DNA of 15,065 bases from Fibrobacterota bacterium (lineage in GTDB: Bacteria > Fibrobacterota > Chitinivibrionia > Chitinivibrionales > JANQEN01). Below, in pieces: positions 2,007-15,065 of this stretch. The notes under the pieces were generated by a model, which worked only from the letters and a program-made list of their open reading frames with translations, searched no databases and was not told the DNA's origin. A program made the position numbers and the translations under genes. Position 1 is the stretch's first letter; the number at the start of each line of letters is the position of its first letter. The stretch lies in assembly GCA_030619215.1 (NCBI GenBank), contig JAUXBV010000013.1, positions 1 through 15,065 of the forward strand, written 5' to 3'.

Positions 2007-2308
2007 AATTGTGTCATCCCCCAAAATTTGATCGAATATCGGCTTGTTTTATAATATAATAAGAAACAAAGTATTGAAAATAATTTTTGATTATTACCTA
2101 TCTTTACAATATAAGTCACTGTAATAAAACGCGTTAATGTAACCATAAAAACATTAAATTTATAGCAATAACTAAAATTATTTTTAAAATCAGGCTGTCC
2201 ATCACTCATTCATTAAAGTAATTTATTATATATATCGTCAAATGCTATTTTTATTTAATAAAATTAATTGAATCCTCTTAACCCAAAACAAAAAATCGTG
2301 TGAATATT
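2007..2308. promoter_or_regulatory. divergent intergenic control region
   Basis: About 300 bases of very AT-rich DNA separate the beta-helix gene (leftward) from the giant TPR gene (rightward), so it must hold both promoters. TATAAT-like strings occur on both strands, for example around 2048-2062 and 2225-2235, but none has a convincing -35 partner at 16-18 bases. A perfect 7-bp inverted repeat, TTAATGT (2134-2140) and ACATTAA (2151-2157) with a 10-base loop, lies mid-region and could be an operator. No Shine-Dalgarno site is visible before the TPR gene. No small gene is seen. Confidence 0.4.
2017..2022 (-). promoter_or_regulatory. Shine-Dalgarno site of the beta-helix gene
   Basis: The minus strand reads GGGGGA here, with 10 bases before the ATG at 2006. 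The site overlaps the in-frame TTG codon at 2024-2022, which argues that the ATG, not the TTG, is the true start. Confidence 0.6.
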
Positions 2309-5300
2309 ATGAATTTAAAAAAATTACTGCCATTCTTTCTTTTAGCGTTCTCTTTATTGTTTGTTTCACAGATACAGATTGTCAATGCACAAACAAAACC
2401 CAAAATGAGAATTATCATTTCACGTGCGGGTGAAGCCTCATCAGCGGGTCAAGTGCAGAACGACTGGTTTTCTGCTCTCTCTGAAGCCTACTACTATTTC
2501 CGGTTTGATCCTTTGGAGACTGTTAAAATAATACCCCGGAAAAAATACTCTAAAGCTCTTTCTCCTACCGATATTTTCGGCGTGTCGGTCTCGGAAGTCG
2601 ATATCTTCCAGGCTGCAAGAGAGCTGGATGCAACCCATGTATTGATCCATACCTATGACATGGACCCAACTGAAAATGTTATTAATTATTATCTGGAAGT
2701 TCTTACAATAAATAAAAAGGTGGTCGTGACGTTCGATGAGAGCTTTCCGCTTCAAGATGTTGAAAAGAATCTCGAGGCATGTTCAAAACAGATTATTAAG
2801 AAGCTTAAAATTACTCCTTCTTCAAAAATAGCACCGCTGTTAACAAAACCCATTCTCGTTACTGATCACAATGTCCTTATGGAATTCGGTAAAGCTCTGG
2901 TTGAAGCGGGAGATAAAGCCAACGAAAAAGACGCAAAAAAACTATTAAGAATATCGGACAATAATATCGGATTGGCCCTGGCAACATATAAAGCTGCATA
3001 CGCGTTTAAAGATATTGGTGACTGTGACAATGCTGCCAAGCTTTTCAACCGGGTCATTCTGCGAAACAGGCTACCATATTCCAATATCTACCTTCAAGCC
3101 TCAATAAATTATCGCAAATGTCAATCGTTTGATGATGCTGAGAGAGTTCTCTCTCATGCGGAAACCAATGGAATCAGCTCCCATGGACTCCTTGTGGAAA
3201 AAGCGCTTATTCTGGAAAAATTCAAACGGGTCACCGAAGCCCGTAAAATCTATGATAGGATTTTAAAGACAGATCCGGATCAGCCTGACGCGCTGCTTTT
3301 TCTTGCACGACAGGAACGCCAGGCCGGTTCTTATGAAAAATCACTGGATTATCTGGACCGTTATATAAAACTATCTGATAATCCGGGGCCTGCCTACCTT
3401 GAAATGGGCCTCTGCTATGTTGCAATGAAGAGGGATGATGAGGCATTAAGCGTATTACGAAAAGCGAATAACCTGTTACCTGATGAACCGGAATCAAATG
3501 TCCTGCTTGGGGATATATACTTTAAGAAGAAAGAATACGGGACCGCAGCTACCAAATATGGCAAGGCTCTTGAAAAAAGGTCAAATAACCTTGATCTTCT
3601 TATTAAAACATCAAACGCCTATGCAAAAGCTAAAAATTCGAAAAAAGCATTGGCGATTCTTGACAAATACAAAGCTAATTTTTATGATACAAAAGTTGTA
3701 ACCAAAGAAATCGGCCTGTTGAAATTTCAGCTTAAAGATACGACCGGTGCGCGGGGAATTCTTGAGACATGCCTGGGAATCAGGCCTCCGGACAGCAGGG
3801 TGTTTCTTGCAATGGGAGACATCTATGCAGCAAAAGGCGAGAGGGATAAAGCAATCCGGATGTATGAGCAGGCGGACCCGCTTCTGAAAGATAAAACCAG
3901 GGTAAAGATAGCACTCGCAAATCTTCAGATTCAAAATAAGGATTATGATAAGGCTCAAAAGAACCTTAAGGCGATCCTCTCCAAAGATCCGGATTATCCC
4001 AATGCAAATGGTTATCTTGCTGATGTGCTGATGGCTAAAGGGCAAAAACAGCAGGCATTGAAACATTATCTGAAAGAGAGAGAACTTCAGGGAGAAAATG
4101 TTCATTTTCAGCAGAACATTGCCGAAATCTACTTTGACATAAACAACCTGTCAATGGCGGAAAAGGAGTCAAGGAAACTTTTAACGCTTGATCCGATTAA
4201 TGCAATCGGTTACAAACAGCTTACGCTTATTGCAATCAAGAATAAAAATTCTACAGAAGCGCAGAATTACATTTCTCAAGCTGAAGTATCAGCCAAAGGT
4301 AAACTCGACCCCTCTTTTTATAAAGAAGTGGCAAAAGGGTTTACGGAAATGAAATCATGGGATAATGCAATTAAATCGTACGGAAGTTATTTAAAGAGCT
4401 CTCCAAAGGATGAAAAGGCATGGATCGAGCTTTCGAAAGTATACTTACAAGCTAGAAGAGACAGCAGCGCTGCCCGCGCGTATATAAAAATTTATGAACT
4501 CAGCCCTCAGAAAAATAAAGACTACCTTGCAAAAGCCGGACACACCTATTATAAACTGGGTATGAAAAAGCAGGCAAAGGAGACCTATTCAAAATTCCTG
4601 ACGAAGGGTTTCGTTGACCCGCTTGTCAATGTCAACAGCGCCCACATGGAATTTGCACATAAAAGGTATGAAAAAACAATCTCTTTACTTGAAGGAGCGA
4701 GCGGAAAATATGCCTCAGACGAAGAGGTTGTAAAAATGCTTGCGTATTCATACCATAAAACAAAAAAGCATTCGCAGGCGCTGCAATATATCAAAAAACA
4801 TCTTGCCAATTTTCCCAATGACAGAAAAGGTGTGGAAATTGCCGCCCTTGAATATGAAAAAGCCGGTAACATAAAATCAGCCGCAGATATGTATAAAAAG
4901 TATCTCAGCCGCGACAAGAACCAGGACTATGCCTATAAACTGGGAGCATTATATGAAAAACTGAAACAGAACTCACTTGCAATGGGGCAATACAAGAAAA
5001 ATATTGCTGATTATCCCGAAGATTTTCGCAGCTATGAGCGCCTTGCTGAATTATACCTGGCCTCAAATCAATTCGACAATGCGGTAAAAATGCTTGTCAA
5101 GGTCACGGCTAACCCCTCCGCTGATCCTGCCTTTTTCAAAAAACTTGCTGAAGTCTATACAAAGCAGAAAAAACCGGCTCTTGCTGCTGCCACCTACGAG
5201 CAGTATCTCATCAAATCACCAAAAGACTCAGACATGTTGCTGAAGCTGGGCGTCACCTATTATGAGAAAAAGGATTATGAAAAGGCATTAACACCGCTGA

Positions 5301-8300
5301 TGCGTGCATTCGAGCTTAAGCCTAATAACAGCGAATGTTTGGCTATGATCGGACATGCATATTACAAGATGGGTAAAAAGGAGGATGCATATAAAACGTA
5401 TTCCGAATTTAAAAGAAGGGGGTTCAGTGATCCGGAGGTAAGCGTGAACCTTGCGAAAATGGAATATAAAGCCAAGAATTACTCCAAAACGATCTCCCTT
5501 CTGAAAAACCTCACCGGCAAGTATGCGTCCGATCCTAAAGTCAACAGGATGCTCGCCCTGTCACACAGCAAAATGGGAACACATTCCCTTGCAGCAACGT
5601 ACATTAAAAAGCTTGTTGACAAATCGCCAAATGACCCTGAAGCGCTGGAACTGGCTGCAATATCATACGAAAAAACAGGCGACAGTAAAAACGCCGCTGC
5701 AATGTTCAAGAGATATATTGCCCTTCCCAAGTCAGCGACTAAAGCTGAGAAACGCCAGGATTATGCCTATCGCCTGGCAACACTTTACGAAAAGCAGAAA
5801 CAGGTACAGCAGGCTGTAACGCAATACAATGCCAATATCAAAGAGTACCCGAAGGATTTCCGTAATTATGAAAAGTTGGGGCTCTTATACCTGGACTCAA
5901 AGCAGTACACCAATGCTATCAAAATGCTGGGCAAAGCAACACAAAACCCCTCAGCAGATCCCGACATATTCCGGAAACTTGCCGAATTATATGTAAGCCA
6001 GAAAAAATTGAGTGAGGCCACAAGCACCTATGAAAAATACCTCGCAAAAAGAGGAACCGACTCCAAGGCCTGGTTTGCACTGGGAAAAATCTACTACAAT
6101 AAAAAAGCGTATGATAAAGCGGTGAAGCCCCTTGTCCGCGCTTCGGATCTGATGCCGCAAAACAGAGAATGCCTGGCAATGGCCGGCCACTCCTATTATC
6201 ACCTTGGCAAAATGACGGAAGCGTATCAAACCTATAACAATTTTCTTAAAAAAGGATTTAAAGATCTTGAAGTTAATGTTAATATTGCGGCAATCGAATT
6301 TAAAAATAAGAAATATACCAGGACAATTTCCCTGCTGAAAAATCTCACGGGTAAATATGCTTCCGATCCGAAAGTTATCAGGATGCTCGCTATCTCGCAC
6401 AGCAAGATGGGAACCCACTCCCTTGCGCTGAGTTATGTTAAAACACTCGTTGAGAAAAACCCAAGTGACCCGGAAGCGCTGGAACTGGCAGCTTTGACAT
6501 ACGAAAAAACGGGCAATAACAAATCCGCGGCCGACATGTTTAAGAAATACTGTGCACTTCCAAAAAACAAGGTTAAGTCTAAAAAACGCAAGGAATACGC
6601 TTACCGCCTTGCGATCTTATATGAAGTTCTGAAACAGCCGTCACTGGCGATTGCGCAATACAAGAAAAATATTACTTATTCCCCGAAGGATTTTCGCAAC
6701 CATGAGAAGCTGGGCGAACTTTACCTGAAGGCAAAACAGTACGAAAATGCGGCTCAGATGATGGAAAAAGCAACGTTAAATCCCTCTGCTGATCCAAATA
6801 TCTATAAAAAGCTGGCAGAACTCTATGTTAAGCAGAAGAAAGGACCAAAAGCTGCAAGCACCTATGAAAAATATCTGGCAAAAAAATCAACGGATTCCAA
6901 AGCATGGTACGAGCTCGGAAATATTTATTACAAGCAGAAAGCGTACAATAAGGCACTGAAACCTCTTTCACGTGCTACTGAGCTGATGCCTCAGAACAGC
7001 AAATGCCTCGCACTGACCGGACATACCTACTTTGCGTTAGGGAAAAAAGCCGAAGCATATAATATTTACAGCATTTTTTTCAAAAAAGGATTTAAAGATA
7101 TTGAGGTCAACGTTAAACTGGCAAAAATGGAATTTGATAATAAAAAATATACGCGGACGATCTCACTTTTAAAAAACCTTACGGGAAAGCATGCAACAGA
7201 TCCCAAGACGATCAGAATGCTTGCTATTTCACATAGTGAAATGGGAACCCATTCCCTTGCATTGAGCTATATAAAAAAGCTTGTCCAGAACAAACCAAAT
7301 GATCCGGAGGCTATTGAACTTGCAGCTATCACCTATGAAAAAACGGGTGATGACAATTCTGCTGCCAGTATGTATAAAAAGTACTGCTCTCTCCCCAAAG
7401 AAAAAGTTAATAAAAAGAAACGCAAGAAATATGCTTTTCAACTAGCGGAATTGTATGAAAAACAGAAACAGACCTCCCTCGCTATAGCGCAATATAAGAA
7501 AAATACTGTAGATTACCCCAAAGACTATCGTAACTATGACCGCCTGGGAGGTTTATACCTTAAATCCAAGCAGAATGCGAATGCCCTGCTAATGTTTGAA
7601 AAAGCTGCGACAAATCCTTCAGCGTCACCTGATTTACACAAAAAACTCGCCGGGCTTTATGAAAAGCAGAATAAAAAATCCCAGGCTGCCAGTACCTATG
7701 AAAAATATTTATTAAAGAGAACAACCGATTCAAAAGCATGGTATGCGCTTGGAAATATCTACTATAAGCAAAAAGCCTATGAAAAAGCAATCAAACTCCT
7801 TGCCCGGGCTTCTAAGCTTATGCCGCAAAATAAGGAGTGTCTTGCGCTTACCGGCCATACCTATTATGCCCTGGGCAAAAAAGCGGAAGCATACAGAATT
7901 TATGATGACCTGAATAAAAAAGGATATAAAGATCCGCAGGTTACTATAAATCTCGCAACAATGGAATTTGACAAGAAAAATCATACCAGGGCAACAGCTT
8001 TATTAAAAAGTTTATCCGGCAGTAAATATACCTCCGATGAAAAAACAATAAGGATGCTGGCTGTCTCTTATTATAATAACAAAAAGTATTCGGAAGCTCT
8101 CCCTTATGTAAAAAAGCTTGTAGCCAAAGCTTCTTCCGATAAAGAGGTTGTTGAAATAGCAGCGGTAACCTATGAAAAAACCGGAGATATCAGATCAGCT
8201 TCTAATATGTATAAGAAGTTTCTTACCTTTAAAACAACGAAAAAGCATCAGGAATATGCCTACCGCCTTGGAAAGCTGTATGAGAAACAGAAAGCAATGT

Positions 8301-10426
8301 CTTCAGCGATAACTCAATATAAGAGTAATATATTAAAATATCCAAACGACCTGCGGAACCATGAGAGGCTTGCGCAACTTTATATTAACTCCAAAAACTA
8401 TTCACAGGCAACAAGAATACTTACAAAAGTATCATCAAAAGCTTCGGCACCGCCCACCATGAGTAAACAACTTGCACAGATATATTCGAAACAGGGAAAA
8501 AAGAGCCTGGCAGCCGCTGCATACGAAAAATATCTCAAAAAGGTTCCAACAGATTCTACCTCTTTTTATAAGCTCGGAACTATTTACTATTCACAAAAAG
8601 CATACAAAAAAGCCGTCTTGCCGCTTGAAGCAGCTTCTGTATTAATGCCCAGAAATTCGAGCTGCCTGTACAAGCTGGGAGATTCATATGTCAAGTCGGG
8701 CACCCCCAGGAAAGCTATCAATCCATTGAAAAAGGCTTATAATCTAAAAAAGAATGATATGAAAACCATTAGTCTACTTACAAAATGTTACGAGACGGTA
8801 AAGGATACAAACAACCTTATTGCTATTCTGCAAAAATATACTGCATTGGAATCAAAGAACTTCAACCGTCATTCACAGCTTGGCAATCTACTCCTTAAAA
8901 CCAATAAAACCGATCAGGCAATTAGTATTTTGGAAGCTGCGAGCAAAATTAAGCCTTCTCATGTTCAAACTCACCTGGCACTTATAACTCTCTATAAAAA
9001 AAAGAAGAACAGGGCTTTACTTATCAGGCACTTCAACTCCGCGCTGCAGTTCGATCCCAGGAACGCTGACCTTCAGTTCGAAAAAGCTATGTTCCACCTG
9101 GATGCCAACGAGCTTCCCAATGCAAAAACATCCTTTAAAAAAACTATTCAGTTGAGTCCTAAACATGCCCGTGCCCATTATCATTATGGAAAGATACTGC
9201 ATGACGGAAAGCAGCTTAAAACAGCCTTTTATCACTTTGGGCAGGCAGCAAAGTACTCACCCAAAAATACCGACTACCTTCTTAAGCTTGCTCAAACAGC
9301 AGTGGAGACAGGAAATCCCAAAACAGCCAAGACTACGATAAGCAAAGCTATCAAGTTAAAACCGAACGACCCTGCATTGGTACAAATGGCCGGATACATT
9401 TATTATAAAACAAAAGATTATCAAAGTGCTGAAAAATACTTAAACCAGGGAATGAAACTGGACAGGAATTGCCCATACTGCCACGAGCTGCTTGGGTCTA
9501 TCTATTTTGCAAATGCAAATTACAGCAGTGCGATTACCTTTTTAGAAAAAGCTTCAAATAAAGACCCAAATAATGACTCTGTCCTGGTAATGTTGGGCGA
9601 TGCCCTTGCCTTTACCAACCAATTGAGGCGCGCGCTTATCTTTTACAATAAAGCATTCGGCATTAACCCTAAAAATAATAAAACCTTTTATAAGGTCGTT
9701 GCCGGGAAAATTGACATCGGGATGCCAAAAGAAGCTGAAGCAATTATGAATAATAATAAGGGAAGAAAGAAAACAGCCTGGGTTCATCTTGCCCAGGGCA
9801 GAGTTCTGGAAGCCAATAAAAACCCCACAGTCGCCGAGTTCTCATATAATGCAGCTCTCCGTTCAATGCCAAATAACTCCGATGCCCACATGGGATTGGG
9901 CCGGGTATACCTTGAACAGAAAAAATATAACAAAGCTGTTCAGCATTTAAGCATGGCTATGATTGAAAGGCCTGATGACTTGAATGTCTTTGTTGGAATG
10001 GGAAGAGCCTATTATGGACTTAAAAATTATTCCGCAGCACTTGAGCTCTTTTCAGATGCACTGAAAAAAAATCCCAAGCAGCACGAAGCAAATATGTATA
10101 TGGGGCTGATATACAGTAAAAGAAAGAAGCATGATAAGGCTATTTCTCTATTTGAAAAGTCCCTGGCCCGGGAACCAAGAAACCCGGATCTTTACTTCAT
10201 GCTGGCGGTTGAATATGGCAGGATTTTACGTTTCAAAGAGTCGATAGCCAGTTTTCTTAAAGTGATAAAGTATGATGATTCAAAAGCTGTTGTTGTATAT
10301 AAAAATGTTGGTGATTTATACTATTACAAAATGAAAGACAAAAAAAAGGCGAAGAAGTACTGGGTAAAATATTTAAAAGCCGGCGGCACCAGTAATAAGG
10401 TAAAATCGCTGCTCAAATCGTTATAA
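2309..10426 (+). CDS. giant exported TPR-array protein (about 2,705 residues)
   Basis: The start is taken as the ATG at 2309. An in-frame GTG at 2300 would add three residues, and neither has a Shine-Dalgarno site. Residues 1-27 are a signal peptide (NLKK, Leu/Phe-rich core, cleavage near VNA/QT). Residues about 33-167 form a small alpha/beta domain whose layout (WFSALSEAY, VKIIPRKKY, AARELDATHVLIHTY, then a strand-rich end) resembles the TolB N-terminal/CsgG-like domains that often precede TPRs. This is a family-level guess. The rest is about 70 TPR units with the usual 34-residue period (G/A at position 8, Y at 11, A at 20, P near 32). Residues 698-2078 are five tandem supermodules of eight TPRs each. 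A degenerate sixth start follows, then about 17 more canonical TPRs. The protein is strikingly lysine-rich. It has no T9SS tail and no C-terminal membrane segment, so a periplasmic or surface-associated scaffold is inferred. Its partners are unknown. It is convergent with the Ig-like gene. Confidence 0.93.
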   Translation: MNLKKLLPFFLLAFSLLFVSQIQIVNAQTKPKMRIIISRAGEASSAGQVQNDWFSALSEAYYYFRFDPLETVKIIPRKKYSKALSPTDIFGVSVSEVDIFQAARELDATHVLIHTYDMDPTENVINYYLEVLTINKKVVVTFDESFPLQDVEKNLEACSKQIIKKLKITPSSKIAPLLTKPILVTDHNVLMEFGKALVEAGDKANEKDAKKLLRISDNNIGLALATYKAAYAFKDIGDCDNAAKLFNRVILRNRLPYSNIYLQASINYRKCQSFDDAERVLSHAETNGISSHGLLVEKALILEKFKRVTEARKIYDRILKTDPDQPDALLFLARQERQAGSYEKSLDYLDRYIKLSDNPGPAYLEMGLCYVAMKRDDEALSVLRKANNLLPDEPESNVLLGDIYFKKKEYGTAATKYGKALEKRSNNLDLLIKTSNAYAKAKNSKKALAILDKYKANFYDTKVVTKEIGLLKFQLKDTTGARGILETCLGIRPPDSRVFLAMGDIYAAKGERDKAIRMYEQADPLLKDKTRVKIALANLQIQNKDYDKAQKNLKAILSKDPDYPNANGYLADVLMAKGQKQQALKHYLKERELQGENVHFQQNIAEIYFDINNLSMAEKESRKLLTLDPINAIGYKQLTLIAIKNKNSTEAQNYISQAEVSAKGKLDPSFYKEVAKGFTEMKSWDNAIKSYGSYLKSSPKDEKAWIELSKVYLQARRDSSAARAYIKIYELSPQKNKDYLAKAGHTYYKLGMKKQAKETYSKFLTKGFVDPLVNVNSAHMEFAHKRYEKTISLLEGASGKYASDEEVVKMLAYSYHKTKKHSQALQYIKKHLANFPNDRKGVEIAALEYEKAGNIKSAADMYKKYLSRDKNQDYAYKLGALYEKLKQNSLAMGQYKKNIADYPEDFRSYERLAELYLASNQFDNAVKMLVKVTANPSADPAFFKKLAEVYTKQKKPALAAATYEQYLIKSPKDSDMLLKLGVTYYEKKDYEKALTPLMRAFELKPNNSECLAMIGHAYYKMGKKEDAYKTYSEFKRRGFSDPEVSVNLAKMEYKAKNYSKTISLLKNLTGKYASDPKVNRMLALSHSKMGTHSLAATYIKKLVDKSPNDPEALELAAISYEKTGDSKNAAAMFKRYIALPKSATKAEKRQDYAYRLATLYEKQKQVQQAVTQYNANIKEYPKDFRNYEKLGLLYLDSKQYTNAIKMLGKATQNPSADPDIFRKLAELYVSQKKLSEATSTYEKYLAKRGTDSKAWFALGKIYYNKKAYDKAVKPLVRASDLMPQNRECLAMAGHSYYHLGKMTEAYQTYNNFLKKGFKDLEVNVNIAAIEFKNKKYTRTISLLKNLTGKYASDPKVIRMLAISHSKMGTHSLALSYVKTLVEKNPSDPEALELAALTYEKTGNNKSAADMFKKYCALPKNKVKSKKRKEYAYRLAILYEVLKQPSLAIAQYKKNITYSPKDFRNHEKLGELYLKAKQYENAAQMMEKATLNPSADPNIYKKLAELYVKQKKGPKAASTYEKYLAKKSTDSKAWYELGNIYYKQKAYNKALKPLSRATELMPQNSKCLALTGHTYFALGKKAEAYNIYSIFFKKGFKDIEVNVKLAKMEFDNKKYTRTISLLKNLTGKHATDPKTIRMLAISHSEMGTHSLALSYIKKLVQNKPNDPEAIELAAITYEKTGDDNSAASMYKKYCSLPKEKVNKKKRKKYAFQLAELYEKQKQTSLAIAQYKKNTVDYPKDYRNYDRLGGLYLKSKQNANALLMFEKAATNPSASPDLHKKLAGLYEKQNKKSQAASTYEKYLLKRTTDSKAWYALGNIYYKQKAYEKAIKLLARASKLMPQNKECLALTGHTYYALGKKAEAYRIYDDLNKKGYKDPQVTINLATMEFDKKNHTRATALLKSLSGSKYTSDEKTIRMLAVSYYNNKKYSEALPYVKKLVAKASSDKEVVEIAAVTYEKTGDIRSASNMYKKFLTFKTTKKHQEYAYRLGKLYEKQKAMSSAITQYKSNILKYPNDLRNHERLAQLYINSKNYSQATRILTKVSSKASAPPTMSKQLAQIYSKQGKKSLAAAAYEKYLKKVPTDSTSFYKLGTIYYSQKAYKKAVLPLEAASVLMPRNSSCLYKLGDSYVKSGTPRKAINPLKKAYNLKKNDMKTISLLTKCYETVKDTNNLIAILQKYTALESKNFNRHSQLGNLLLKTNKTDQAISILEAASKIKPSHVQTHLALITLYKKKKNRALLIRHFNSALQFDPRNADLQFEKAMFHLDANELPNAKTSFKKTIQLSPKHARAHYHYGKILHDGKQLKTAFYHFGQAAKYSPKNTDYLLKLAQTAVETGNPKTAKTTISKAIKLKPNDPALVQMAGYIYYKTKDYQSAEKYLNQGMKLDRNCPYCHELLGSIYFANANYSSAITFLEKASNKDPNNDSVLVMLGDALAFTNQLRRALIFYNKAFGINPKNNKTFYKVVAGKIDIGMPKEAEAIMNNNKGRKKTAWVHLAQGRVLEANKNPTVAEFSYNAALRSMPNNSDAHMGLGRVYLEQKKYNKAVQHLSMAMIERPDDLNVFVGMGRAYYGLKNYSAALELFSDALKKNPKQHEANMYMGLIYSKRKKHDKAISLFEKSLAREPRNPDLYFMLAVEYGRILRFKESIASFLKVIKYDDSKAVVVYKNVGDLYYYKMKDKKKAKKYWVKYLKAGGTSNKVKSLLKSL
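4400..8542 (+). repeat. five tandem coding supermodules of 272-278 codons, each eight TPRs
   Basis: The copies inside the giant TPR gene are A 4400-5215 (272 codons), B 5216-6049, C 6050-6883 and D 6884-7717 (278 codons each), and E 7718-8542 (275 codons). Copy A splits into units of 34, 34, 34, 34, 34, 33, 34 and 35 residues, so each supermodule is exactly eight TPRs. The length differences come from one loop between units 5 and 6, the ALPK...KKRK-type insertion in B-D. Each copy ends in a recognisable AA(S/A)TYE(K/Q)YL motif. Copies B, C and D are the most alike, while A and E have diverged. At DNA level, even the most conserved block differs at many third codon positions, so the duplications are old. 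Confidence 0.9.
8543..8960 (+). repeat. degenerate sixth supermodule start
   Basis: The first two TPRs after copy E (PTDSTSFYKLGTIYYSQKAY, then MPRNSSCLYKLGDSYV) align with units 1 and 2 of the supermodules, including the recurring Cys. After that the similarity fades and the sequence becomes ordinary TPR. It looks like the remnant of a partial sixth copy, or the ancestral segment from which the array grew. The right boundary is approximate. Confidence 0.6.
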
Positions 10427-10504: not shown

Positions 10505-12910
10505 CTACTTCAAATAAATTAAGCGGATGTTTCTCGTATATCTTTTCTCTCCATTAATGGTAAGCCGCGCAATATAATATCCTGCTCCTATCTGATACCC
10601 CAACTTGTCAGCATTCAATTTGAAGTAGTAGCGCCCCCTGTTTACATCACCTGAGTACAATGTCATTATCGTTTTACCATTCAAATCGAATATCTTTAAA
10701 CTGGCCTTTCCCTTAACCGGTGTTGAAAAGGAGATATTCGTATAACCACGGAATGGATTCGGATAATTCTTTAAATTAAAAACAATATGATCTGAAACAG
10801 GCGTAAAAACAACGGGAACTATCTCCGGGCCGGCATCTGTCCAATTTATTATAATATCGTTATTATTGATTACGATACTATCTACCTTATGCAACAGCGT
10901 ATCATTTTCCGATATATACCCACCCACAACTGTGTAGACTCCATTTGGCAGTTTCATTCCATAGGTACTGTCCGGCTTCATCCACACACTAACAGTAAAA
11001 CCTCTTGCTGAGTCAACCGCAAAAACACCTGCGTCATGAGGGTCGGTTGGAAAAGTCATTTTGAATTTTCCGGAAATTGAACCATTGGGCTCAAGTACCA
11101 GGAATTCCAGAGTATCAGTACCGGCTGCAACATTATGATAGGGATAGTTACCGCCATCATCCTGCGGAACAATGATATATTCCTCAGGAAGGTCATGACG
11201 ATCAACAGCCACGTAATATCCGGGGAAATGAACGTTGGAAGAAACATTTATCTCAAAAGCGCCGCGGCCGGTAACTTCCGTTTCTGCAATAAACGTTCCC
11301 TGGAGGCTGTCATGATCCGCTGTTGCCATAATGTATAGCTTTTCCGGGATATCCCCGCTTACCGTACCGCTTATCACAGCATCCGTTGAATGTACCATAT
11401 AAATCACATCAACGGTATCATCGGCCTCGTCAACACTTACAGAATAATCCTGATTCATATAATTCGGATCATCGACCCGTATCTGCCACGAACCGAGAGA
11501 AACCTGCAAAAGCGCCGTACCATTTATATCAGTTTGCCCCCCAACTTCGACACCTGAGTACTGTTCCGACAATTCAACACCAACATTTGCAACAGGATTG
11601 TTTGTTTCATCAACAACAGACAAATTAACATATTTATCACCCTTCTTAATCTCTATCAGTAAATCGCTTTGCCCGGGGCCTGCGCTGTCTATATAGCTCG
11701 GAGAGACAAAATAGCCCTGGGGCAGCACATCCTCATTCACCCACGTATGCACCATATACCTGAGGAACTTTGACGAAACAGGAATTTCAAAGCTGCCGTC
11801 TTCTGATATATCAGCCCGTGCATAATACCAGACACCGTCAGGATGATTCCATTGACCGGTAGTATCCATTGCCACATTTATATCGAAATCCTCCTCCAGG
11901 TCGATTCCCGCGCTATCAACAATAGTGCCGGAAATAGTTGCGTCAGCGGTTAGAAGCACATATACAACATCAACGGTATCGTCACCCGGTAAAACCTCGA
12001 CCTTAACATCCGGGCTCATATATTCCACCGAAGAGCCCTTATCATCAAAATGTATCTCCCAGATGCCGTCTTTAACCGGCGCTATAAATTTGCCGAGGGA
12101 ATCTGCCTCAACACCGAACTCCATATTCAAGTCTTCGGATTGAAACCACAGCCTGGCTTTTGCAATGGGGCTTCCGCTCTCATCCTTTACAACACCGGCT
12201 ATGAAAAACTTAGTCCTCTCAAAGATAAAGTTTATGGTTGTCAACCCGGCAGTCACCGTTGTTTCAGCGGGATGCGGCGGAATCAGGCTGGTCCCTTCCA
12301 AAACACCGAACTCATCCTCCGCCCCGACCTTTACATCCTTTCCCTGCATGGTATCAGGCAGGTAAACGATATAGTCGCCATTCGCATCGGTGCTGACAAT
12401 TCTTTCAAATTCATCCTGCAACTCAGGTGTTTTGAACGCCGCGTAAACTATAATGTTTTTAATGCCACCGGAGTCGCTGCTCACCTTTCCGCTGATATAC
12501 GTATTCGTAACCGGCCAGGTATTTACTATGAGTGATGCAGTGTCTGGCCCTCCCTTATCGGAAAGTATTATGAAATAGGTTCCCGGAATATCAAAACCTT
12601 TTTCACCGCCTGTTTCTATGGGCAGAGAAGCCTTGCCGTCGGCAATAGTGTCCTGGTCATCGTCACCATCAATAAACTTCTCCCCCACCTCTTTTGAATT
12701 GTAGATAACATGGTCTACATTTTCATCAGGGATACCGTCACCGCTGATATCAAGTATCAACAGTATGTCCGCAGAGTCGCCTACAACTGAGAAATCCCCG
12801 GTCAGGACCGACGATTCTCCCATTGATATTGTACCGGGTGTAAAGGTGAGGTTGCTGAATGCAAACAGGTTCAGCGCAAATACAATTACACAAAGACCTG
12901 AACGGCGCAT
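10505..12910 (-). CDS. secreted multi-Ig-like/carboxypeptidase-regulatory repeat protein with T9SS sorting domain
   Basis: Predicted protein of 801 residues. The ATG at 12910 has an AAGGAGG site five bases upstream and begins a short signal peptide (MRRSG, then a hydrophobic stretch to about residue 22). Residues 54-66 (DISGDGIPDENVD) and 81-92 (DGDDDQDTIADG) look like acidic calcium-binding loops. Then come about six beta-sandwich modules of the carboxypeptidase-regulatory/transthyretin-like type, each opening with an ISGxV-like strand, near 139, 237, 326, 428, 513 and 611. Two copies of a DDTVDVVY/DDTVDVIY strand followed by DAxISGT (310-329 and 497-516) show internal duplication. Residues 714-801 are a T9SS type A sorting domain: NYPNPF, LKIFDLNGKTI, GAGYYIARL, basic tail. 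No catalytic domain is seen, so a structural, adhesive or surface-layer role is most likely. The protein is clearly acidic, unlike the basic TPR protein it converges with. Confidence 0.88.
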   Translation of the reverse strand: MRRSGLCVIVFALNLFAFSNLTFTPGTISMGESSVLTGDFSVVGDSADILLILDISGDGIPDENVDHVIYNSKEVGEKFIDGDDDQDTIADGKASLPIETGGEKGFDIPGTYFIILSDKGGPDTASLIVNTWPVTNTYISGKVSSDSGGIKNIIVYAAFKTPELQDEFERIVSTDANGDYIVYLPDTMQGKDVKVGAEDEFGVLEGTSLIPPHPAETTVTAGLTTINFIFERTKFFIAGVVKDESGSPIAKARLWFQSEDLNMEFGVEADSLGKFIAPVKDGIWEIHFDDKGSSVEYMSPDVKVEVLPGDDTVDVVYVLLTADATISGTIVDSAGIDLEEDFDINVAMDTTGQWNHPDGVWYYARADISEDGSFEIPVSSKFLRYMVHTWVNEDVLPQGYFVSPSYIDSAGPGQSDLLIEIKKGDKYVNLSVVDETNNPVANVGVELSEQYSGVEVGGQTDINGTALLQVSLGSWQIRVDDPNYMNQDYSVSVDEADDTVDVIYMVHSTDAVISGTVSGDIPEKLYIMATADHDSLQGTFIAETEVTGRGAFEINVSSNVHFPGYYVAVDRHDLPEEYIIVPQDDGGNYPYHNVAAGTDTLEFLVLEPNGSISGKFKMTFPTDPHDAGVFAVDSARGFTVSVWMKPDSTYGMKLPNGVYTVVGGYISENDTLLHKVDSIVINNNDIIINWTDAGPEIVPVVFTPVSDHIVFNLKNYPNPFRGYTNISFSTPVKGKASLKIFDLNGKTIMTLYSGDVNRGRYYFKLNADKLGYQIGAGYYIARLTINGEKRYTRNIRLIYLK

Positions 12911-14138: not shown

Positions 14139-14363
14139 AATAAGAATAAAATAACAAATCACAAATCATAAATTACAAACAAATTCCAATATCCCCTATT
14201 TCGCTAAAGCTACATAGGACACGCAAATTCCAAACAATATGGTGCATAGCTTATCTGATTATACTATTTGTGCATTTTTGAATACAAAACAATTTTTTAT
14301 TGTTATATTAATAATAACAAAGCACAAAGCACTATTCTGCTTATAATTCAATTAGGGGGGAAA
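14139..14363. promoter_or_regulatory. divergent spacer with degenerate short repeats and inverted repeats
   Basis: The tract 14150-14189 is built of near-repeats of ACAAATC/AAATTACAAA, and CAAATTCCAA recurs exactly at 14180-14189 and 14224-14233. Two perfect AT-rich inverted repeats overlap: AACAAT/ATTGTT at 14288-14304 and TTGTTAT/ATAACAA at 14300-14320. Their shared arm means only one can form at a time. They lie 45-75 bases before the esterase start, where an operator would fit. No promoter with both hexamers is evident, and no gene is seen. Confidence 0.4.
14355..14360 (+). promoter_or_regulatory. G-rich ribosome binding site of the esterase gene
   Basis: A run of six G after ATTA ends three bases before the ATG at 14364. 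The close spacing is slightly short, but pairing of the first Gs gives a usable distance. It supports the chosen start. Confidence 0.55.
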
Positions 14364-15065
14364 ATGAAACAATACCACACATATACCTTTTTGTTAATAG
14401 TATTTATACTTATAATCAATCCTGTATCAGCCGAAGAAAGAACTATTAACGTTAATGGAACCATACGAGAATACATAATTGAAGTACCCGGTAATTATTC
14501 CAACAGCCTTCGACACGACCTGATCATAGTCTACCATGGAATGACCGGCACTGCCTCACAAACCATGTTTACCGGTTTTCATAATTCCGGAGCACAGGAC
14601 CATTTCATTACTGTGTATCCCCAGGGGCTTGATGACATTGACAACCCGTTCAATCCCGGCACAACCACCACAGGCTGGAAATTCGAAATTGCCAATAACC
14701 GCGATGTAACCTTTACCGAAGTCCTCCTGGACACCCTTGAAGCGGAATTCAATATAAGACATGACGGAATTTACATTACCGGTATCTCAAACGGCGGCTA
14801 CTTTTCGGATATACTGGCCTGTAACATCGGCGACCGCCTTGCAGCAATCGCCCCGGTAATCGGCGGTTATCAATGGTTATCTTCATCCGCCTGCTCAATT
14901 TCGGAAAACCTGCCCATATTTCACCTCGGCACTGAATTTGACGCAATTGTGGACATTGAAAACCTCCGGGGTGCAACAGAATTCTGGATCGGCCATAATA
15001 ACTGCGACGACACCCCTGTACAGCAAGGTATATGCGACGTATATAAAGGCAGCGAGCAGGACGCC
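14364..15065 (+). CDS. secreted esterase, PHB depolymerase/feruloyl esterase (LpqC-like), 3' end outside window
   Basis: The first 234 codons are present with no stop, and the frame runs off the right edge. Residues 1-23 are a signal peptide (MKQYHTYTF, hydrophobic core, VSA/EE cleavage), so the enzyme is exported. The body follows the esterase-PHB family (COG3509, CE1-like): an opening strand pair (TINVNGTIREYIIEVP), the first-strand motif IIVYHGMTG at 54-62, VYPQGL at 84-89, the nucleophile Ser142 in GISNGG, APVIGGY after it, and a probable acid Asp193 in HLGTEFD. The catalytic His should lie beyond the edge. Members cleave short polyesters or feruloyl esters on plant xylan; which one applies here cannot be told. 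Whether a carbohydrate-binding or T9SS domain follows is unknown. The gene is divergently placed from the membrane hydrolase. Confidence 0.85.
   Translation, partial: MKQYHTYTFLLIVFILIINPVSAEERTINVNGTIREYIIEVPGNYSNSLRHDLIIVYHGMTGTASQTMFTGFHNSGAQDHFITVYPQGLDDIDNPFNPGTTTTGWKFEIANNRDVTFTEVLLDTLEAEFNIRHDGIYITGISNGGYFSDILACNIGDRLAAIAPVIGGYQWLSSSACSISENLPIFHLGTEFDAIVDIENLRGATEFWIGHNNCDDTPVQQGICDVYKGSEQDA

Follow-up and report, generated by a model that had tools for sequence, protein, structure and literature searches.

Why should a bacterial gene carry one block of eight TPRs five times over? The question is raised by a 15,065-nucleotide stretch of a contig from a Fibrobacterota bacterium (the window; assembly of 3.64 Mb in 579 contigs, 69% complete), in which a single open reading frame of 2708 aa (2300-10426, plus strand) encodes a giant TPR protein. 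A first-pass annotation had read each block as about one full turn of a TPR superhelix, so that an identical surface patch would return on the same face at even spacing, and had proposed a periplasmic ruler or a docking rail with five equivalent sites. We examined the protein, its relatives and its neighbors with that proposal in view.

A headed TPR protein with five tandem units

The frame is counted from GTG 2300 as a mechanical start, while the probable signal peptide (2309..2392; this and all further features of the protein lie on the plus strand), judged by eye from the translation and the DNA, was read from ATG 2309. It has no Cys near the cleavage site, so the protein is probably not a lipoprotein. 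An N-terminal alpha/beta head follows (2393..2863), with the fold shared by the TolB N-domain, FlgT, LpoB and CsgG and probably by PelC, and TPRs make up nearly all of the frame beyond the signal peptide and this non-TPR domain of about 155 residues. The Pfam model TPR_19 hits the protein with an E-value of 1.8e-151, other Pfam TPR models hit it as well, and the predicted model of the protein is all paired helices (pLDDT 91.3). The Pfam model for FlgO (PF17680) found none of four head domains above its cut-off; the head of the relative L051 gave a weak match (E 0.019). The signal peptide judged by eye, together with the occurrence of the head and array folds in known periplasmic proteins, suggests that the protein is probably periplasmic.

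Self-comparison over residues 698-2081 gave an identity of 0.477 at a lag of 278 residues; the median across the tested lags was 0.076. The frame that divides the array most cleanly has unit starts at residues 670, 942, 1220, 1498 and 1776 and spacings of 272, 278, 278, 278 and 275. Delimited by self-comparison, unit alignment and parse, these are unit 1 (4307..5122, residues 670-941, 272 aa), unit 2 (5123..5956, residues 942-1219, 278 aa), unit 3 (5957..6790, residues 1220-1497, 278 aa), unit 4 (6791..7624, residues 1498-1775, 278 aa) and unit 5 (7625..8449, residues 1776-2050, 275 aa). Pairwise identity among them is 0.44-0.69, and a 34-residue profile parse gives eight TPRs per unit, designated A to H; in copy 1, TPR F falls under the parser threshold yet is alignable. 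The small residues that mark positions 8 and 20 of the 34-residue TPR are largely kept: across the five units the former is A or G in all 40 repeats and the latter is A in 36. The parse also places a 6-aa loop behind TPR F in three units.

By the same parse, the amplified region is flanked by unamplified TPRs of the ancestral frame, numbers 1-13 upstream (2975..4306) and 24-40 downstream (8657..10393). Between unit 5 and the downstream flank, alignment and parse identify a partial sixth unit (8450..8656, residues 2051-2119), which starts at residue 2051, holds the first two TPRs and then passes into unique sequence at ancestral TPR 24. The protein ends in a family C-terminal motif, the last TPR plus a Y-(V/L)-K-A-G-G tail (10286..10423). 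Five tandem units of 272-278 aa with eight TPRs each, as the first-pass annotation described them, are therefore confirmed by self-identity, unit alignment and profile parse. The span it assigned to them, 4400-8542, is the same array in circular permutation; actual homology runs from about 4307 to 8656.

A family with a nearly fixed array length

Using the window head domain as query, we found a match in 28 of 100 genomes, its own included. With an alignment of eight heads as query, 29 of 167 genomes of the phylum match (one of them weakly, E 2.2e-4), all within the 40 genomes of the same order; the head domain was found in none of the 127 genomes of the phylum outside that order. A scan of named-species genomes returned 13 loci, seven of them full relatives, labelled Fibrobacter sp. 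or Chitinispirillaceae MAGs. The other six (Geomonas and others) are TPR-protein matches at 22-24% identity and were not used.

The open frame of a full-length member is about 1600 aa long, and the parse of the unexpanded ones spans about 40 TPRs. The array is 1359-1370 aa long in 25 of 26 full-length unexpanded relatives, from 14 genomes, at a mean pairwise identity of 0.33 (range 0.24-0.87). The one exception, L075, has an array of 1270 aa, perhaps misaligned, in an open frame of ordinary length (1602 aa). The set of 26 leaves out L039, which a contig end truncates, both expanded members (L031 and L040), and the members L067, L068, L077-L079 and L081-L083, which are contracted or cut by contig ends; lengths given for relatives are those of open frames from stop to stop. 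The family tree contains at least three paralogous groups and places the window protein, L031 and L032 in one clade (support 100). The window protein has the features of the family, namely the head, 40 + 32 TPRs and the C-terminal Y-K-A-G-G motif. Our literature search, confined to open-licence PMC papers, gave no publication, among the matches listed, on a family with this head and about 40 TPRs.

Several variants accompany the full-length form. Contracted members, with about 25 TPRs in L067 and L068 and 16 TPRs in L081, keep the C-terminal motif; they come from small genomes or from different families within the order, and their contigs gave no head match among the matches listed. Head-bearing open frames of about 620-870 aa are present in many genomes of the order, and one of 682 aa (L050:252-2297) has eight TPRs and, by eye, a likely C-terminal membrane helix. 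In L064, L065 and L066 the open frames reach about 120-250 residues further upstream of the head, with an array still of 1360 aa. The window genome itself has an apparent second family member in two contig-end pieces, an N half on G000:C576 (L079) and a C half on G000:C19 (L078), and a third head domain on C359.

Relatives amplified blocks of other sizes

The first-pass annotation had suggested a search for homologs with different numbers of the repeated module, and two were found. The first, L031 (G001:C238), from a sister genus, has an open frame of 2620 aa with four copies of a 10-TPR unit; its head is 44% identical to the window head (E 8.0e-41). The second, L040 (G011:C45), from another family, has 1974 aa with two copies of a 9-TPR unit. 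Unit lengths by self-comparison are 278 aa in the window protein, 343 aa in L031 and 307 aa in L040. The parses returned 70, 68 and 48 TPRs, respectively; counting each 33-residue parse gap as one TPR brings these to 72, 70 and 49. The excess over 40 TPRs is thus 4 x 8 in the window protein, 3 x 10 in L031 and 1 x 9 in L040, with the extra blocks in phase. Read by eye from the parses, the amplified ancestral TPRs are 16-23, 15-24 and 20-28. Such differences in block size and endpoints point to separate amplifications. The three blocks share four TPRs, and random blocks of these sizes would do so with a probability of 0.08, so the overlap needs no explanation.

In a tree of units, copies group by species, with support of 100/99 for window copies 2-4 and 100/96 for G001 copies 1-3. 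Topology tests on 17 of the 36 rows rejected the pairing of first copies across species (p-AU 0.023); in the same subset, pairing of last copies and holding the G001 copies together were both unrejected (p-AU 0.29 each), and the five window copies formed one clade weakly (65/72). The edge copies (window copies 1 and 5, G001 copy 4) may therefore go back to an older duplication common to both proteins.

The copies are old and maintained

Between window copies, pS is 0.74-0.86 and pN is 0.17-0.32, and fourfold sites mismatch at 0.63-0.74, where saturation would give 0.75. Tandem Repeats Finder returned no rows for the window DNA, the copies being too diverged at the DNA level. Because synonymous sites are near saturation and no DNA-level tandem repeat is left, recent slippage and an assembly artefact are both ruled out. 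These rates mark the copies as old and as subject to purifying selection.

Scored with a profile built from 26 single-copy blocks, the window copies reach 296.1, 295.6, 294.3, 292.6 and 288.2 bits, and the G001 copies, four in all, reach 281.8-287.2 bits. The single-copy blocks themselves, each left out in turn, score 232.0-349.9 bits with a mean of 305, so that all copies of both proteins lie slightly under the single-copy mean, while ten stretches of eight TPRs taken from elsewhere in the window protein score 60.4-84.3 bits. The profile rows were the 26 full-length unexpanded members, less L075, which was left out for its mis-set unit start and long branch, plus the first copy of L040 (804-1077). 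Taken together, near-saturated synonymous sites and the fit to the single-copy profile argue that the blocks are old, maintained and near-equivalent, and that no copy is decayed.

A candidate groove patch in each unit

Groove-facing positions of the TPR were taken to be 2, 5, 9, 12 and 13, and structural positions were chosen likewise, following the TPR literature rather than coordinates. Identity between copies is 0.77 at structural positions in the window protein (0.69 in G001), 0.47 at groove positions (0.29) and 0.44 at outer helix positions (0.33). A map of this kind had been proposed as the way to find a recurring surface patch; conservation proves highest at the packing positions, which in part speaks against such a patch. 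By this measure the groove shows no excess, its positions being about equal to outer ones in the window protein and below them in G001.

Type-specific information, measured against the family profile, is a second and more favorable measure. Single-copy members carry 0.56 bits per residue at groove positions (sd 0.27) and 0.24 at outer positions. The corresponding ranges are 0.36-0.73 and 0.13-0.33 for the window copies and 0.18-0.40 and 0.05-0.32 for the G001 copies; for controls of the wrong type the averages are -0.80 and -0.50. Structural positions carry less of this information in the window copies (0.27-0.59 bits) than in the single-copy members (0.82). We also counted kept cells, considering those in which 50% or more of the 26 single members have the same residue. 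Retention in every one of the five window copies holds for 8 of 13 cells in the groove, 2 of 11 at outer positions, 17 of 44 elsewhere and 33 of 50 at structural positions. Compared with 19/55 for the other non-structural cells, the groove value of 8/13 is higher but short of significance (Fisher p 0.11); in G001, 3 of the 13 groove cells are kept by all four copies.

The four clearest groove cells, chosen post hoc, lie close together in the repeat order. Among the 26 single members, Glu occupies F12 in 22 and G12 in 25, and both residues are present in all nine copies; Glu F5 occurs in 17 of 26 single members and again in nine of nine copies; and Arg H2 occurs in 22 of 26 single members, all five window copies and two of the four G001 copies. 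Together they form a patch, acidic for the most part, that spans three neighboring TPRs of each unit, F-G-H, located at 4823..5125 in copy 1, 5636..5959 in copy 2, 6470..6793 in copy 3, 7304..7627 in copy 4 and 8141..8452 in copy 5. As a candidate groove site the patch is suggestive only, and some of its Glu residues may be helix caps, structural instead of ligand contacts.

Gene neighborhoods

The window gene lies between two genes on the minus strand, 294-2024 and 10505-12910, both encoding proteins with T9SS-type C-terminal sorting tails. The protein of 10505-12910 has a carboxypeptidase-regulatory-like domain and a sorting tail above the Pfam cut-off. The tail of 294-2024 scores 24.8 of the 27 bits needed when taken alone and 27.5 with its neighbors in frame, and the same protein shows weak matches, below cut-offs, to DUF5123 and beta-helix models. 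Further downstream, an esterase-like frame (14268-15065, plus strand; Pfam Esterase above cut-off) runs off the window and matches models of extracellular short-chain polyhydroxyalkanoate depolymerases below their cut-offs. A scan of the genome for T9SS sorting domains gave 110 matches, with 150 of 192 candidates scored, and the TPR frame was not among them. Its C-terminus is the last TPR plus tail, with no sorting domain, and T9SS cargo was rejected as an assignment.

In the Fibrobacter-labelled locus L051 (2409-17085), the homolog follows Omp85/BamA-, lpxD-, lpxC/FabA- and lpxA-like genes in the same direction and precedes two oligopeptide ABC ATPase genes; the L057 homolog likewise precedes ABC ATPase genes. 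The lpxC gene of L051 is fused to a FabA-like domain, and a small frame there (9018-9659) has, by eye, a lipoprotein-like start. The window and the remaining relatives have other neighbors (L031 by Pfam, the rest by eye from ORF lists). No gene neighboring the window gene was seen to recur among the loci looked at, and since neighborhoods differ between relatives, no partner can be inferred from them.

Comparison with known systems

Secreted superhelices of TPRs (or Sel1-like repeats) likewise serve exopolysaccharide export in PgaA, PelB, BcsC and AlgK. Those, however, have about 8 to 19 repeats, within a porin or, for AlgK, a lipid-anchored protein, whereas the window protein has 72 TPRs, no barrel and, unlike all four, a TolB/PelC-like head fused N-terminally. 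PelC is presumably a separate lipoprotein, unlike the head fused to TPRs here. No export gene was recognized among the other frames of the window that were scanned. TolB has its N-domain followed by a beta-propeller; the head fold is alike, but the remainder of the window protein is TPRs, which rules out an identity as TolB. Nebulin is a ruler. Its multi-domain blocks are described as amplified in tandem, seven domains at a time (PMC1553488), and the block there is mostly seven, while the blocks of the TPR family vary among 8, 9 and 10. In PgaA, according to the account cited, polymer binding is proposed for the groove, and the TPR domain modulates the enzyme PgaB (PMC9384988). LbcA, the adaptor of CtpA, is described as an envelope TPR spiral that may wrap round its substrate (PMC8764530); it is a lipoprotein with 11 TPRs, from which the window protein differs. 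TPR proteins of Fibrobacter have been proposed, in the text cited, to act in a cohesin/dockerin-like manner in gathering cellulases, fibro-slime and OmpA proteins (PMC6851124). They share the phylum with the window protein, whose head domain is confined to its own order among the genomes searched.

Names offered by NCBIfam models were rejected as uninformative, as many TPR models exceed their cut-offs on 72 repeats. The PrsT model of the XrtA/PEP-CTERM system (TIGR02917) scores the window protein at 639.1 bits against a cut-off of 312.2, and the score does not discriminate, because MamA, PilW, SctY, HemY-like and other TPR models also pass on a 72-TPR protein. PrsT was rejected for length (2708 aa against a profile of 899) and for the missing signal-region Cys, PrsT being presumably, from its family name, a lipoprotein. 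MamA (NF040959) reaches 564 bits against 200, yet does so over 19 stretches of a headed protein of 2708 aa with a profile of length 204; MamA is a protein of about 200 aa from magnetosome bacteria.

What the amplification may do

The amplification itself is plain: within a secreted family of 40-TPR proteins, TPRs 16-23 of a member with a TolB/PelC-like head have been multiplied in tandem and in phase. For its purpose, the explanation we favor, to which we give close to an even chance, is that amplification of a conserved eight-TPR block has yielded a secreted, multivalent scaffold, which docks through its head and offers an acidic groove per block. PgaA and LbcA are precedents for a TPR superhelix of the envelope with a groove or scaffold role. 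The protein would be a periplasmic scaffold and the head would anchor it at the envelope. The TPR superhelix would then show one conserved, mostly acidic groove, formed by TPRs F-G-H, for each block, and amplification would both lengthen the rod and add sites at which a partner, be it peptide, protein or glycan, could dock. With 8 TPRs from site to site in the window protein and 10 in that of the sister genus, the spacing is not fixed, so that a common face for all sites is not required.

Its strongest rival is pure length adjustment, in which the copies are spacers under a fold constraint and a longer rod was needed, for a thicker periplasm or a larger assembly. Length seems important in this family, given arrays that are otherwise so uniform in 25 of 26 full-length members; the window and sister-genus proteins reach near-equal totals, 72 and 70 TPRs, by different blocks; and kept groove residues show no significant excess. 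A mere spacer, however, would not need copies that fit the type-specific profile within the single-copy range, and the third expanded member stopped at 49 TPRs. We regard this reading as rather unlikely, if worth keeping in view.

A special form of the favored scaffold would be a TPR scaffoldin, with one conserved groove per block and a valency tuned by amplification of 8, 9 or 10 TPRs while the 40-TPR frame stays constant. The many proteins with T9SS-type tails in the genome, the two neighbors included, and the cellulase proposal for Fibrobacter TPR proteins make such a role attractive, and typical cellulosomal genes are reported, in the passage cited, as absent from Fibrobacter succinogenes S85 (PMC6851124). 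We consider it unlikely; if true, the number of docking sites would evolve by the number of blocks.

The expansion might instead be incidental, the product of unequal recombination in mid-gene that was tolerated and later held by folding constraint alone. Domain repeats are said to expand commonly by several domains at once, often in mid-array (PMC1553488); three lineages have different endpoints here, and the overlap of their blocks calls for no cause. Yet the copies are old, with none decayed, and 25 of the other 26 full-length members hold a common length although recombination could act there too, all of which makes the incidental reading improbable.

The turn reading of the first-pass annotation can be set against structure as well as against the relatives. 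Consensus-design TPRs are reported to wind with eight repeats per turn (PMC7885266), while TPR spirals, in the descriptions cited, range from about 7 repeats per turn (PMC9384988) to a notched ring of 11 TPRs in LbcA (PMC8764530). Locally, the predicted model has TPR-like geometry, with an rmsd of 1.7 A to 1na0 across 118 residues, but over the 272 residues of one unit it lies 7.7-9.2 A from eight-repeat consensus superhelices, with long-range placement unsure at a pTM of 0.47. The consensus TPR superhelix has 8 repeats per turn and a pitch of 72 A. A rough calibration by rmsd, which used idealised helices, assumed radii and these consensus parameters, gave about 6 to 11 repeats per turn, a range compatible with eight; among fitting perturbed helices, 19-25% fall within 7.5-8.5. 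Block sizes of 8, 9 and 10 all lie near one turn, which with n = 3 weakly favors the turn reading. The 6-aa loops in three units break the regularity, however, and the 9- and 10-TPR blocks of the relatives, with their other endpoints, mean that copies would be rotated relative to each other, contrary to a patch recurring on the same face. These blocks rule out a unit held to one turn in every member of the family. Of the five equivalent sites once envisaged, five near-equivalent, undecayed blocks stand and their recurrence on one face is not supported, and a rail of evenly spaced, identical patches is the least probable of the readings considered.

What is new, whether the copies serve as the docking sites of a multivalent scaffold or otherwise, is an array length fixed at about 40 TPRs and repeatedly broken by blocks of 8, 9 and 10, with all copies undecayed. 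This brings out a family whose array length is strikingly fixed across three paralogous groups. The proteins of 40, 49, 70 and 72 TPRs form a natural series in which the length, and possibly the valency, of one solenoid has been changed blockwise while the rest was kept, and that series makes the question of ruler versus multivalency testable for giant bacterial TPR proteins.
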